From: Streptantibioticus rubrisoli
GTDB lineage: Bacteria > Actinomycetota > Actinomycetes > Streptomycetales > Streptomycetaceae
NCBI RefSeq assembly: GCF_024436055.1
Contig: NZ_JANFNH010000012.1
Location: 62,001-126,000, forward strand
DNA length: 64,000 nucleotides
Direction: 5' to 3'
In this document: positions 29,297 through 33,926 of the stretch, one piece after another
How the letters are laid out: every line of letters begins with the position of its first letter
Numbering within the stretch: position 1 is the stretch's first letter
Translations under genes and position numbers: made by a program
The notes under the pieces: generated by a model
The model's input: the letters and a program-made list of their open reading frames with translations, nothing else
What the model was told of the DNA's origin: nothing
Database searches by the model: none

Positions 29297-30757
29297 TCAG
29301 TGGACGCCCAGCCACCCTTGGATGGGGTGAAGGGCGAAGTAGACGGTGAAGACGACCGACAGGACCCACATGAAGGCGCCTGGATCACGCCACTTGCCCT
29401 GCGCGGTCTTGATGACCGTGTACGCGATGACGCCCGCGCCGACCCCCGCGGTGATCGAGTAGGTGAACGGCATCAGCGCCACGGTCAGGAAGACCGGGAT
29501 CGCCACCGAGCGGTCGCTCCAGTTCACGTGCTTGGCATTACCCATCATCATCGAACCGACCACGACCAGCGCGGCGGCGGCCACCTGACTGGGCACGATC
29601 TGGGCGAGCGGGGTGAAGAACAGCCCGGCGGCGAACAGCAGGCCGGTGACCACGCTGGACAGGCCCGTCCTGGCCCCCTCGCCCACGCCGGTCGCCGACT
29701 CGACGAACACCGTCTGCCCCGAGCCGCCGACCAGTCCGCCGACCATTCCACCCGCTCCGTCGATGAGCAACGCCTTGCTCAGCCCGGGCATCCGGCCCCT
29801 GGCGTCGGCCAGCCCGGCCTCCGTGCCGACCCCGATGATGGTCGCCATTGCGTCGAAGAAACCCGCCAGCACCAGGGTGAACACGATGATGCCGACGGTC
29901 ATTCCGCCGATGTGGCCCCAGCCGCCGAACTCCGCATGGCCGAGCAGGGAGAAGTCCGGCAGTGAGACGACCTTCTTGGGCAGCTCGGGCACCGCGTAGC
30001 CCCACACCTTGGCGCCAAGGCCCGCCACCGCCTGTACGACCACCGCGATCACCGCGCCGACCACGATGCCGATGAGGATCGCGCCGGGGACCTGCCTGGC
30101 CTGCAGGGCGAAGATCAGCAGCAGGGTCACCGCGAAGATCAGCACCGGCCAGCCGGTGAGATGGCCGCCGACCCCGAGCGTGACGGGTGCGTCCGCGCTG
30201 CCGATGCCGACGAAGCCCGCGTGCACCAGGCCGATCAGCGCGATGAACATTCCGATGCCGATGGTGATCGCGTGCTTGAGCGGCAGCGGGATGGCGTTCA
30301 TGATCATCTCGCGGAGTCCGGAGACCACCAGCAGCACGATCACCCCGCCGTAGATCACGCACATGCCCATCGCCTGCGGCCAGGTCATGTTGGGCACCAC
30401 CTGGGTGGACATCACACCCGAGACGCTCAGCCCGGCGGCGAGGGCGAGCGGGACCTTGCCGACGAAGCCCATCACCAGGGTGGTCACCGCGGCGGCCAGC
30501 GCGGTCGCGGTGACCAGCGGGGCCTGGCCGAGCCGGTGGCCGCTGACGTCGGCCCCGGAGAGGATCAGCGGGTTGAGCAGCAGGATGTAGGCCATCGCCA
30601 TGAAGGTCGTCAGACCTCCACGGACCTCTCGGGCCACGGTCGAGTTGCGGTCGGAGATATGGAAGTAGCGGTCCAGCCACGAGCGGCCGGAGGGTACGCG
30701 CGAGCTGGCGCCCGCCTCCTCGGCGACCGTCGTCGGCTCGACTTGCGACTGGGTCAT
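29297..30757 (-). CDS. NCS2-family purine permease (AzgA-like)
   Basis: 486 residues, about 13-14 transmembrane segments. The AzgA branch is shown by the N-terminal DRYFHISDRNSTVAREVRGGLTTFMAMAYILLLNP, by GFFDAMATIIGVGTEAGLAD (the conserved Asp of helix 8), and by GGLVGGSGQTVFVESATGVGEGARTGLSS. These proteins are proton symporters for adenine, guanine or hypoxanthine. The position inside the xanthine dehydrogenase operon points to uptake of hypoxanthine/guanine or xanthine for oxidation. ATG at 30757 has GGGAG ten bases upstream, and that site is partly tied up in the leader stem described separately. Confidence 0.94.
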   Translation of the reverse strand: MTQSQVEPTTVAEEAGASSRVPSGRSWLDRYFHISDRNSTVAREVRGGLTTFMAMAYILLLNPLILSGADVSGHRLGQAPLVTATALAAAVTTLVMGFVGKVPLALAAGLSVSGVMSTQVVPNMTWPQAMGMCVIYGGVIVLLVVSGLREMIMNAIPLPLKHAITIGIGMFIALIGLVHAGFVGIGSADAPVTLGVGGHLTGWPVLIFAVTLLLIFALQARQVPGAILIGIVVGAVIAVVVQAVAGLGAKVWGYAVPELPKKVVSLPDFSLLGHAEFGGWGHIGGMTVGIIVFTLVLAGFFDAMATIIGVGTEAGLADARGRMPGLSKALLIDGAGGMVGGLVGGSGQTVFVESATGVGEGARTGLSSVVTGLLFAAGLFFTPLAQIVPSQVAAAALVVVGSMMMGNAKHVNWSDRSVAIPVFLTVALMPFTYSITAGVGAGVIAYTVIKTAQGKWRDPGAFMWVLSVVFTVYFALHPIQGWLGVH

Positions 30758-30765
30758 GAGTCCAA

Positions 30766-30931
30766 CTCCCAAGGTTCATAGGGGCACCCGCGCCAGGCGC
30801 GGGATTTGGGAATGTGCCTTGGCCTGCACGACCCGGGGGACGGCCCGAGACGAACGGGGTTACTGCGCCGGTCGGCGGACCGGCCGGGTTCCGGGCGGTG
30901 GCGGGAGGGACGAGAACCCGGCACCGCCCGG
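30766..30931 (-). ncRNA. Structured leader before the purine permease, candidate cis-regulatory RNA
   Basis: Read on the minus strand, the 203-nt gap between the Mo subunit and the permease has two layers. First, a 10-bp pair (30931-30922 with 30900-30891) and an 8-bp pair (30921-30914 with 30891-30884) are interleaved, so the two stems are mutually exclusive or form a pseudoknot. A 6-bp tetraloop hairpin (30883-30868) follows. Second, CCAAGG (30822-30817) pairs with CCTTGG (30774-30769) and encloses a perfect 8-bp hairpin (30803-30787), leaving two single-stranded stretches of 13 and 12 nt. The 3' arm of that outer stem overlaps the Shine-Dalgarno GGGAG (30770-30766). No known riboswitch class was matched by eye. 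Confidence 0.5.
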
Positions 30932-30960
30932 AGGCTTGGTTCACTTCGCGGGTCCGGGGG

Positions 30961-33357
30961 TCATCCCCCGGAATACTGCTGCCCGGTGAGGTGCTCCGGC
31001 CGCACCGGCACCCGGTTGAGCGCCAGGCCGGTGGCCGCGCGGATGGCGGCGACCACGGCCGGGGTGGAGGACAGGGTGGGGGCCTCGCCGATGCCGCGCA
31101 GCCCGTACGGGGCGTGCTCGTCGGCGAGTTCGAGGACGTCCACCGGAATGGTGGGGGTGTCCAAGATGGTGGGGATCAGGTAGTCGGTGAAGGACGGGTT
31201 GCGGACCTTGCCCTCCGGGGAGACCACGATCTCCTCCATCACGGCCAGGCCCAGGCCCTGGGTGGTGCCGCCCTGGATCTGGCCGACCACCGACAGCGGG
31301 TTGAGCGCCTTGCCCACGTCCTGGGCGCAGGCCAGCTCGACCACCTTGACCAGGCCGAGTTCGGTGTCCACCTCGACCACCGCGCGGTGCGCGGCGAACG
31401 AGTACTGGACGTGCCCGTTGCCCTGGCCGGTGCGCAGGTCGAACGGCTCGGTGGGGCGGTGCCGCCACTCCAACTCCAGGTCGATCGCCTCGCCTTCGAG
31501 TACGTCGGCCAGGTCGGCCAGCACCTCGCCGCCGTCGGTGACCACCTTGCCGCCCTCCAGCAGGAGTTCGGCGGTGGCCCACGCCGGGTGGTACGAGCCG
31601 AACCTGGCGCGGCCCAGCTCAAGTACCTTCTCGCGCACCGCCTCGCAGGTGTGCTTGACCGCGCCGCCGGTGACGTAGGTCTGGCGGGACGCCGAGGTGG
31701 AACCGGCCGAGCCGACCTGGGTGTCGGCCGGGTGGATGGTCACCTGGGTGACGCCGAGTTCGGTGCGGGCGATCTGGGCGTGCACCGTGACGCCGCCCTG
31801 CCCGACCTCGGCCATGGCGGTGTGCACGACGGCCACCGGCTCGCCGCCCACCACCTCCAGGCGCACCCGGGCGGTGGAGTAGTCGTCGAAGCCCTCGGAG
31901 AAGCCGACGTTCTTGATGCCGACCGCGTAGCCGACACCGCGCACCACGCCTTCGCCGTGCGTGGTGTTGGACAGTCCGCCGGGCAGCGCCCGTACGTCGG
32001 CGGACTGGCCCGCGGTCTCCCATTGCTTCTGCGGCGGCAGCGGCATCGCCTTGACCCTGCGCAGCAGTTCGGCGACCGGGGCCGGGGAGTCCACCACCTG
32101 TCCTGTCGGCATCACGGTGCCCTGTGACATCGCGTTGAGCTGGCGGAACTCCACCGGATCCATGCCGAGTCCGGCGGCCAGCTTGTCCATCTGCGCCTCG
32201 TAGGCGAAGCACGCCTGGACCGCGCCGAAACCGCGCATCGCGCCGCAGGGCGGGTTGTTGGTGTAGAGCGCGATGGCCTCGATCTCGACGTTGTCGACGA
32301 CGTAGGGGCCGACGGACAGCGACGAGGCATTGCCGACGACCGCCGGGGAGGCCGAGGCGTAGGCTCCGCCGTCCAGCACGATCCGGCACTTCATGTGGGT
32401 GAGCTTGCCGTCGCGAGTGGCGCCGTGCTCATACCAGAGCTTGGCCGGGTGCCGGTGGACATGGCCGAAGAAGGACTCGAAACGGTTGTAGACGATCTTG
32501 ACGGGCTTGCCGGTGCGCAGCGCCAGCAGACAGGCGTGGATCTGCATCGACAGGTCTTCGCGGCCGCCGAAGGCGCCGCCGACGCCGGAGAGCGTCATCC
32601 GTACCTTCTCCGGCGGCAGGCCCAGGACCGGGGCGATCTGGCGCAGGTCGGAGTGGAGCCACTGGGTGGCGATGTACAGGTCGACCCCGCCGTCCTCGCC
32701 GGGCACCGCGAGACCCGACTCCGGGCCGAGGAAGGCCTGGTCCTGCATGCCGACCTCGTACTCACCTGAGACGATCACATCGGCCCTGGCCCGGGCGGCG
32801 GCCACGTCGCCGCGGTGGATCGGCTGGCGGTGCACGATGTTGGGGTGCGGGACGTGCCCGGCGTGGTGGTCGGTGCGGCCGGGGTGCAGCAGCGGTGCGT
32901 CCTCGGCGATGGCGGTCGCCTCGTCGTGGACGACGGGCAGCGGGACGTACTCCACCTTGATCTTGGCGGCGGCGCGGCGGGCGGTCTCCGGGTGGTCGGC
33001 GGCGACCAGCGCCACCGGCTCGCCGTGGTGCCGTACCCGGCCGTGCGCCAGCACCGGGGTGTCCTGGATCTCCAGGCCGTAGTTCTTCACCTCGGTGGGC
33101 AGGTCGTCGTAGGTCAGCACGGCGTAGACCCCGGCCTGGGCAAGCGCCTGCGAGGTGTCGATCGACTTGATCTCGGCGTGTGCGTGCGGGCTGCGCAGCG
33201 TGAAGCCCCACAGCATGTCCTCGTGCCACATGTCGGAGGAGTACGCGAACTCGCCGGTCACCTTCAGGGTGCCGTCCGGGCGCAGCGTGGACTCGCCGAT
33301 GCCGCCCTTGGCCTTGCTGCCCTGGGTGATGTTGCTGGGAGTGCGGGTCGCGCCCAT
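30961..33357 (-). CDS. Xanthine dehydrogenase molybdenum-binding subunit
   Basis: 798 residues, the XdhA/PucD-type large subunit. The N-terminal a/b-hammerhead is TGEFAYSSDMWHEDMLWGFTLRSPHAHAEIKSID. The Moco domain shows GGAFGGREDLSMQIHACLLALRTGKPVK, the GAMRGFGAVQACFAYEAQMDKLA loop, EVGQGGVTVHAQIA, and at the C-terminus the catalytic glutamate context GLRGIGEAPTLSSTPAVVAAI (GIGE). It hydroxylates hypoxanthine/xanthine to urate. ATG at 33357 lies 2 bases after the FeS subunit stop. The adjacent XdhC and FeS/FAD subunits make the assignment firm. Confidence 0.96.
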   Translation of the reverse strand: MGATRTPSNITQGSKAKGGIGESTLRPDGTLKVTGEFAYSSDMWHEDMLWGFTLRSPHAHAEIKSIDTSQALAQAGVYAVLTYDDLPTEVKNYGLEIQDTPVLAHGRVRHHGEPVALVAADHPETARRAAAKIKVEYVPLPVVHDEATAIAEDAPLLHPGRTDHHAGHVPHPNIVHRQPIHRGDVAAARARADVIVSGEYEVGMQDQAFLGPESGLAVPGEDGGVDLYIATQWLHSDLRQIAPVLGLPPEKVRMTLSGVGGAFGGREDLSMQIHACLLALRTGKPVKIVYNRFESFFGHVHRHPAKLWYEHGATRDGKLTHMKCRIVLDGGAYASASPAVVGNASSLSVGPYVVDNVEIEAIALYTNNPPCGAMRGFGAVQACFAYEAQMDKLAAGLGMDPVEFRQLNAMSQGTVMPTGQVVDSPAPVAELLRRVKAMPLPPQKQWETAGQSADVRALPGGLSNTTHGEGVVRGVGYAVGIKNVGFSEGFDDYSTARVRLEVVGGEPVAVVHTAMAEVGQGGVTVHAQIARTELGVTQVTIHPADTQVGSAGSTSASRQTYVTGGAVKHTCEAVREKVLELGRARFGSYHPAWATAELLLEGGKVVTDGGEVLADLADVLEGEAIDLELEWRHRPTEPFDLRTGQGNGHVQYSFAAHRAVVEVDTELGLVKVVELACAQDVGKALNPLSVVGQIQGGTTQGLGLAVMEEIVVSPEGKVRNPSFTDYLIPTILDTPTIPVDVLELADEHAPYGLRGIGEAPTLSSTPAVVAAIRAATGLALNRVPVRPEHLTGQQYSGG

Positions 33358-33359
33358 GG

Positions 33360-33926
33360 TCAGACCGCCTCTTCGCTCCGGGCCGCCGCGAGGCGGACCG
33401 CGTCCAGGATCTTCTCGTAGCCGGTGCAGCGGCACAGGTTGCCGGACAGGGCCTCGCGGATGTCCTCGTCGGACGGGGAGGAGTTGCGCTCCAGCAGTTC
33501 GTCGGCGGCGACCAGCAGACCCGGGGTGCAAAAGCCGCACTGCACGGCGCCCGCGTCGATGAACGCCCGCTGGATCGGCGAGAGTTGAGCGTTCTCGCCC
33601 GGCTTGGACCGCCAGCGCTTTGCGTCGTCCAGCGAGATGCCGTGTCCTTCGGCGGCGCAGCCGCCATGGTCGCGCTGCCGGGCGAAGTCGGCGAGCCCCT
33701 CGACGGTGACCACCTCGCGGTCCTGCGCTTGGCCCGCGGCCACCAGACAGGCGCACACCGGCACCCCGTCCAGCCGGACCGTGCACGAGCCGCACTCGCC
33801 CTGCTCGCAGGCGTTCTTGGAGCCCGGCAGACCCATGCGCTCGCGGAGCACGTACAGCAGGCTCTCGCCCTCCCAGACGTCGTCGGCCTGCTGCTTGCGG
33901 CCGTTGACGGTGAACGTCAGGCGCAT
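33360..33926 (-). CDS. Xanthine dehydrogenase 2Fe-2S subunit
   Basis: 188 residues. The plant-type cluster is CEQGECGSCTV with CACLVA. The helical second cluster is QCGFCTPG and GNLCRCTGYEKI. Between them, after VTVEGLADF, lies an extra stretch of about 25 residues (RQRDHGGCAAEGHGISLDDAKRW...) with its own Cys and two His. This makes the subunit longer than the usual 150-170. It passes electrons from Moco to FAD. It overlaps the FAD subunit by 10 bases and precedes the Mo subunit, so the three are translated together. Confidence 0.95.
   Translation of the reverse strand: MRLTFTVNGRKQQADDVWEGESLLYVLRERMGLPGSKNACEQGECGSCTVRLDGVPVCACLVAAGQAQDREVVTVEGLADFARQRDHGGCAAEGHGISLDDAKRWRSKPGENAQLSPIQRAFIDAGAVQCGFCTPGLLVAADELLERNSSPSDEDIREALSGNLCRCTGYEKILDAVRLAAARSEEAV

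Follow-up and report, generated by a model that had tools for sequence, protein, structure and literature searches.

We have found a conserved RNA structure over the Shine-Dalgarno sequence of a purine permease gene, in the gap that separates this gene from the xanthine dehydrogenase (xdh) genes of Streptantibioticus rubrisoli. The element occupies positions 30852-30766, on the minus strand, of the 64,000-nt stretch of DNA that was analysed (the window). Like riboswitches in general, it is a structured, conserved RNA lying in the leader of an mRNA, and among the matches listed it is associated exclusively with an AzgA-type permease gene. The leader is probably a switch deciding when the purine importer is made. 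At a probability of about 0.5, we regard it as a candidate translational OFF riboswitch for the permease with a purine ligand. Translational control, the OFF direction, direct binding of a ligand and the identity of that ligand as a purine are all what we infer, and it is the gene which the leader fronts that suggests purine sensing. A more specific proposal, that the element represents a new Streptomycetaceae riboswitch class in which a purine nucleobase or purine alarmone is sensed via two cooperating C-rich loops and translation of the AzgA-type permease is shut off, falls a little short of an even chance.

The element is an orphan conserved regulatory RNA whose gene partner is clear and whose boundaries are defined; it has covariation support and a short list of candidate ligands. 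In Streptomyces, purine salvage by xanthine dehydrogenase is tied to GTP/ppGpp levels, development and antibiotic production (review PMC6627660). If the RNA at this operon does respond to purines, the circuit would gain a post-transcriptional layer.

Genomic setting and structure of the element

The operon has the order xdh-permease-xdhC, with a gene for an XdhC-type maturation factor next after the permease, and a gene for a PucR-type regulator lies divergently upstream (Table 1). Among proteins of solved structure, the adenine/guanine permeases AZG1 and AZG2 come closest to the permease, from which we infer an AzgA-type purine importer and not a uracil/xanthine NAT type. In relatives, the permease reading frame starts at the equivalent ATG. 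A search for intrinsic terminators (GC hairpin and U tract) gave none in 30700-31050; the sequence-only reading had kept an operon-internal terminator as its alternative.

Table 1. Features of the xdh-permease locus, in window coordinates
Feature	Position	Strand	Basis or remark
Purine permease (Xan_ur_permease, AzgA/AZG-like)	29297..30757	-	Pfam PF00860; gene fronted by the element
Permease Shine-Dalgarno GGGAG	30766..30770	-	Sequence; start codon ATG at 30757
P3 3' strand UUGGGA, overlapping Shine-Dalgarno	30767..30772	-	Invariant in 96/96
Conserved unpaired strand UGCCCCUDUGAACC (D = A/G/U)	30773..30786	-	14 nt, nearly all invariant (96 sequences)
P2 inner hairpin CCCGCGC-CUG-GCGCGGG	30787..30803	-	7 bp, CUG triloop; inside P3
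P3 5' strand UCCCAA (anti-Shine-Dalgarno)	30806..30811	-	Nearly invariant
Variable P1-P3 linker	30813..30828	-	Identity 53%; nearly absent in several species
P1 hairpin CG.CUCGGG-CCGUCC-CCCGGG.CG	30829..30852	-	Alignment; RNAalifold helix
A-B-A'-B' arrangement and tetraloop hairpin	30860..30945	-	Present here, not conserved as drawn; outside the element
Xanthine dehydrogenase molybdenum-binding subunit (pucD)	30961..33795	-	TIGR03196 above cut-off; upstream of permease

RNAalifold, run on 48 sequences with no manual input, returned the helices P1, P2 and P3. In the sequences aligned, P3 takes in GGGA of the Shine-Dalgarno GGGAG, and the P1 core CGGG-CCGUC..CCCG is nearly invariant. Three fixed blocks stand out in an alignment of 91 sequences: CUCGGGCCGUCCCCCGGGUCGUGC, followed by a linker that can nearly vanish; UCCCAAAUCCCG, followed by a hairpin whose length varies greatly; and CGGGUGCCCCUDUGAACCUUGGGAGU, which runs towards the start codon. 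The length of the P2 apex varies widely, and P2 is without trace in some Streptomyces and in genera with a short form of the element. The D base of CCCCUDUGAAC (window 30779) is A, G or T in all sequences counted, never C.

The sequence-only reading had proposed a candidate leader RNA in this gap, and on comparison with homologous gaps an element does survive, conserved and covarying, with its fold redrawn as P1, P3 and P2. The overlap of a 3' strand with the Shine-Dalgarno GGGAG holds, now as UUGGGA of P3, and that a hairpin covers the Shine-Dalgarno of the purine permease gene is supported as well. The inner hairpin also holds, but with 7 bp and a CUG triloop; a perfect 8-bp stem would reduce its loop to a single nucleotide. 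The outer stem CCAAGG/CCUUGG can be placed in the window as had been drawn (CCAAGG at 30822-30817, CCTTGG at 30774-30769, with 13- and 12-nt sides) and is absent in close relatives. CCAAGG reads CCAAAG and CCAAAA in two sister species (L003 and L004) and sits in the freely variable linker; the stem misleads because this one species has it as its minimum-energy fold. Lack of conservation of the two internal strands had been set beforehand as the refuting result, and the element survives that test on the redrawn structure: the 12-nt 3' side, UGCCCCUAUGAA, is nearly invariant, while conservation of the 13-nt 5' side is confined to UCCCAAAU. The interleaved A-B-A'-B' alternative folds did not hold. 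The window does contain the 10-bp A/A' complement (CCGGGCGGTG/CACCGCCCGG), the B/B' complement (CCGGGTTC/GAACCCGG) and the tetraloop hairpin CCGGTC-CGCC-GACCGG; B/B' is lost in genomes of the same genus, and the half of the gap upstream of the element is variable and sometimes missing in relatives.

Conservation, distribution and covariation

A 111-bp leader query had a DNA match in 304 of 395 Streptomycetaceae genomes, mostly one per genome, and a covariance model gave exactly one match in each matching genome. All 32 loci with long flanks place the match between xdh and an orthologous permease. When GTDB genomes were scanned for the exact 3' block, at least 119 stretches were found; among the matches listed, 117 of 119 lie directly before the permease (the two remaining ones stop too early to tell), and all 80 titled records are Streptomycetaceae (Streptomyces, Kitasatospora, Streptacidiphilus, Actinacidiphila). 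The three blocks are approximately 97-98% identical between species, whereas fourfold-degenerate sites in the adjacent coding segment reach 59%; pairwise identity is 98% for P1 and 97% for the 3' block. The linker has an identity of 53% and the P2 apex one of 23%.

Covariance models and sequence patterns gave nothing convincing outside Streptomycetaceae, where one-mismatch pattern matches were about as frequent as those of a reversed-pattern control. Three weak matches of a class-level model outside the family (L135-L137, E 0.04-0.08) were rejected as copies since they do not resemble the motif. No genome searched had a convincing second copy. Viral contigs yielded 15 matches to a looser 18-nt pattern. 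Two species, L128 and L129, have an exact P1 before the same permease and have lost the P2/P3 part, hinting that P1 possibly has a function of its own.

Covariation was assessed in 96 sequences, in which 97.1% of cells were paired and both sides had changed in 9 of 20 pairs. Double-change cells numbered 67 against 20 expected by shuffling, and none of 500 shuffles reached any of five pairing measures. The alignment was fitted to the model, favouring the structure; controls with pairing partners slid by 1-3 columns carry equal relatedness, and sliding destroyed the signal and gave far lower scores. In P1, 98% of cells are paired and compensatory changes occur in 3 of 8 pairs (C-G to G-C, G-C to U-G, G-C to A-U), while the foot of P2 has them in 6 of 6. 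P3 shows few changes, three of which preserve pairing (A-U to G-U), and almost no breakage; its inner six pairs vary too little within Streptomyces for compensatory changes. The folding energy of the window element is unremarkable for GC-rich DNA (z = -1.25), and the case for the element rests on conservation and covariation, not on folding energy.

An extension of P1 by columns 3-5/33-35 received no support. A conserved alternative (anti-sequestering) pairing was looked for in the alignment and none was found, the long-range GUUCG/UGAAC pairing considered for that state being without covariation.

Short forms in related genera

In several Streptomycetaceae genera, the orthologous permease after xdh is preceded by a short form without P2 that keeps the loop CCCCUDUGAAC. 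In Kitasatospora-like and related genera, the loops GUCCCC and CCCCUDUGAAC stand on stems of different sequence. P1 of the short-form genera is a longer hairpin still presenting GUCCCC, one genus having the stem GAGUCGA/UCGRCUC and another GCGNGCCG/CGGCCGC. Their outer P3 pairs read CCAC/GUGG in several genera and GCGC/GCGC in L141; those of L130, a divergent Streptomyces-type member, read GUC/GAC. In a permutation test, the outer flanks had 267 pairs where 248 were expected, and 5 of 1000 permutations reached that count, a supporting result only, as a few rows of its table have a wrong anchor. L147 folds unaided to exactly the short form (z = -2.41), and P2 is wholly missing in Streptomyces L125-L127. 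What stays constant is thus two loops, each on a hairpin, the second of which covers the Shine-Dalgarno.

Genera g2 and g5 retain only a hairpin hiding the Shine-Dalgarno, with a different loop and no P1. In L142, L145, L183, L186 and L191, from two genera, a Shine-Dalgarno-covering hairpin CCACCCCAA...UUGGGAGUGG was observed with no recognisable P1 and with a differing loop, such as CAACACCUAGACAC.

Comparison with known RNA classes

Rfam 15 gave no gathering-score match in the window or in 18 related loci, and nothing meaningful even at E up to 5-10, in agreement with the earlier failure to match the leader to a known class. The literature search found no Streptomyces purine-permease leader; the motifs of Weinberg 2017 were compared only through Rfam. 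The NMT1 motif, or xanthine riboswitch, is a short hairpin with a conserved internal junction that is associated with purine genes, binds xanthine or urate and acts as a translational OFF switch via the ribosome-binding site (PMC7373994, PMC8266621). The element resembles it in the short hairpin with its conserved junction and in the link to purine genes, and OFF control via the ribosome-binding site is proposed here also. NMT1 is, however, a single rod (P1-P2a-P2b) of Proteobacteria, whereas the element comprises two separate hairpins and belongs to Streptomycetaceae. The core of the crystallised NMT1 member (J1-2a, J2) is AGAAGCGUUCAG / CCCGGAAAUUG (PMC8266621). Inspection against that sequence found no such core in the aligned element sequences.

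Guanine-class riboswitches have a loop-loop contact. They form a three-way junction of stems P1-P3, and their xanthine-sensing variants include xanthine dehydrogenase among the downstream genes (PMC9295807). The element likewise has purine degradation/salvage genes downstream, but it consists of two hairpins, one with an inner hairpin, without a three-way junction or a match in Rfam. If a ligand is bound, the fold would be unlike the purine riboswitches compared here.

ANTAR target RNAs have two hairpins whose hexaloops carry A1 and G4; the P1 loop CCGUCC has neither. COG2252, which we take to be the family of AzgA-type permeases, gives its name to a motif linked in this way to the same permease family. 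That motif is from Pseudomonadales, was rated ambiguous and has no Rfam entry in the table concerned (Weinberg 2010, PMC2864571). Like the element, the dauA, livJ and pntA motifs of Streptomyces are orphan leaders restricted to a lineage, and their conserved fold contains or adjoins the Shine-Dalgarno (PMC11109978). They precede genes for a STAS protein, branched-chain amino-acid transport and transhydrogenase, in contrast to the purine permease here, and dauA is a three-stem junction, unlike the element. The text of that survey, which includes Streptomyces avermitilis, mentions no xanthine, permease or xdh.

Proposed mechanism and alternative explanations

We propose that the leader RNA acts in cis, within the xdh-permease-xdhC operon, to control translation of the permease. 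P3 (UCCCAA/UUGGGA) pairs with GGGA of the Shine-Dalgarno, so its formation should block initiation, and in one state of the leader the ribosome would be kept out in this way. The P1 loop CCGUCC and the strand UGCCCCUDUGAACC inside P3 would make up a putative binding site, for which P2 may serve passively as a scaffold. A small molecule bound there would stabilise P3 and turn the permease OFF. The likeliest ligand would be a purine imported by the permease or made by the pathway (guanine, hypoxanthine, xanthine or urate). A hairpin could form without the invariant unpaired bases, which are most simply explained by recognition of something; our preference is for a small purine acting through the loops, with a protein as second choice. 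The setting, with xdh genes and a divergent PucR-type regulator, speaks for this model. Against it, the inner pairs of P3 vary little, no conserved alternative pairing emerged, the element is tied to one gene and one family when many riboswitch classes are more widespread, two species have P1 only, and g2 and g5 have only the hairpin hiding the Shine-Dalgarno.

The main rival is a translational operator at which a purine-sensing RNA-binding protein recognises both loops and thereby closes or opens P3. Recognition by a protein would suit a pair of short hairpins whose C-rich loops are conserved and whose stems are tolerant, and restriction to one family and one locus fits a lineage-specific regulator. 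We nevertheless think it rather unlikely: the analysis identified no RNA-binding protein as a candidate, and aptamers typically have a long unpaired strand that is nearly invariant, as here. Moreover, proteins that bind their own leaders are typically nucleic-acid-binding ones, whereas the permease sits in the membrane.

The unpaired strand also bears on a less probable explanation, an unregulated hairpin or thermosensor that merely sets a low rate of permease translation within the operon. The condition of g2 and g5 speaks for it, as does the presence of P3 in the minimum-energy folds of the short forms L147 and L140. It would leave the near invariance of the P1 loop and of UGCCCCUDUGAACC unexplained, which a mere hairpin would not need. 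Pairing of the C-rich loops with a trans-acting small RNA seems improbable; GUCCCC and CCCCUDUGAAC are both C-rich and unpaired, but no G-rich partner RNA is known, and complementarity would be needed across many species, yet D varies freely among three bases.

A DNA-level operator or permease promoter is very improbable. The inverted repeats TCCCAA...TTGGGA and CTCGGG...CCCGGG are present in the DNA, but the TCCCAA-TTGGGA spacing shifts by tens of bases with P2 and the P1-P3 linker can nearly vanish. Moreover, the compensatory changes obey RNA pairing, including G-U, no sigma-70-like promoter was found, and the Shine-Dalgarno is exactly where the block stops. Least probable is an upstream ORF, or a leader peptide, read as GTG...TGA through the element or as NTG AAC CTT GGG at the Shine-Dalgarno. 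The variable base before TGAAC is only A/G/T and so gives ATG/GTG/TTG, but counts over the three phases contradict this explanation, since the phase is not kept from GTG to TGA (31/27/22) or from NTG to the permease start (38/36/16), and some relatives have CGAAAC.

Other conserved sequences nearby

In 89 of 196 loci, including the Streptomyces loci L025, L031 and L033, the stretch from the xdh stop to P1 contains a second conserved hairpin, with the stem CCGGGCGGYG/CRCCGCCCGG and GGAACGUCACACUUC in its loop, at a position homologous to window 30901-30935. Exact copies of the GGAACGUCACACUUC loop occurred only at the xdh-permease locus in the genomes tested. In the window, the stem is present and the loop differs (UCUCGUCCCU). 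Upstream of a paralogous permease (approximately 52% identical) in L151, L152, L155 and L161-L167, UCUACGCGCGNAGAURG, which has no Rfam match, recurs and is followed by UUCAUACUGAA; the two may be a palindrome and a promoter-like box, or another leader element.
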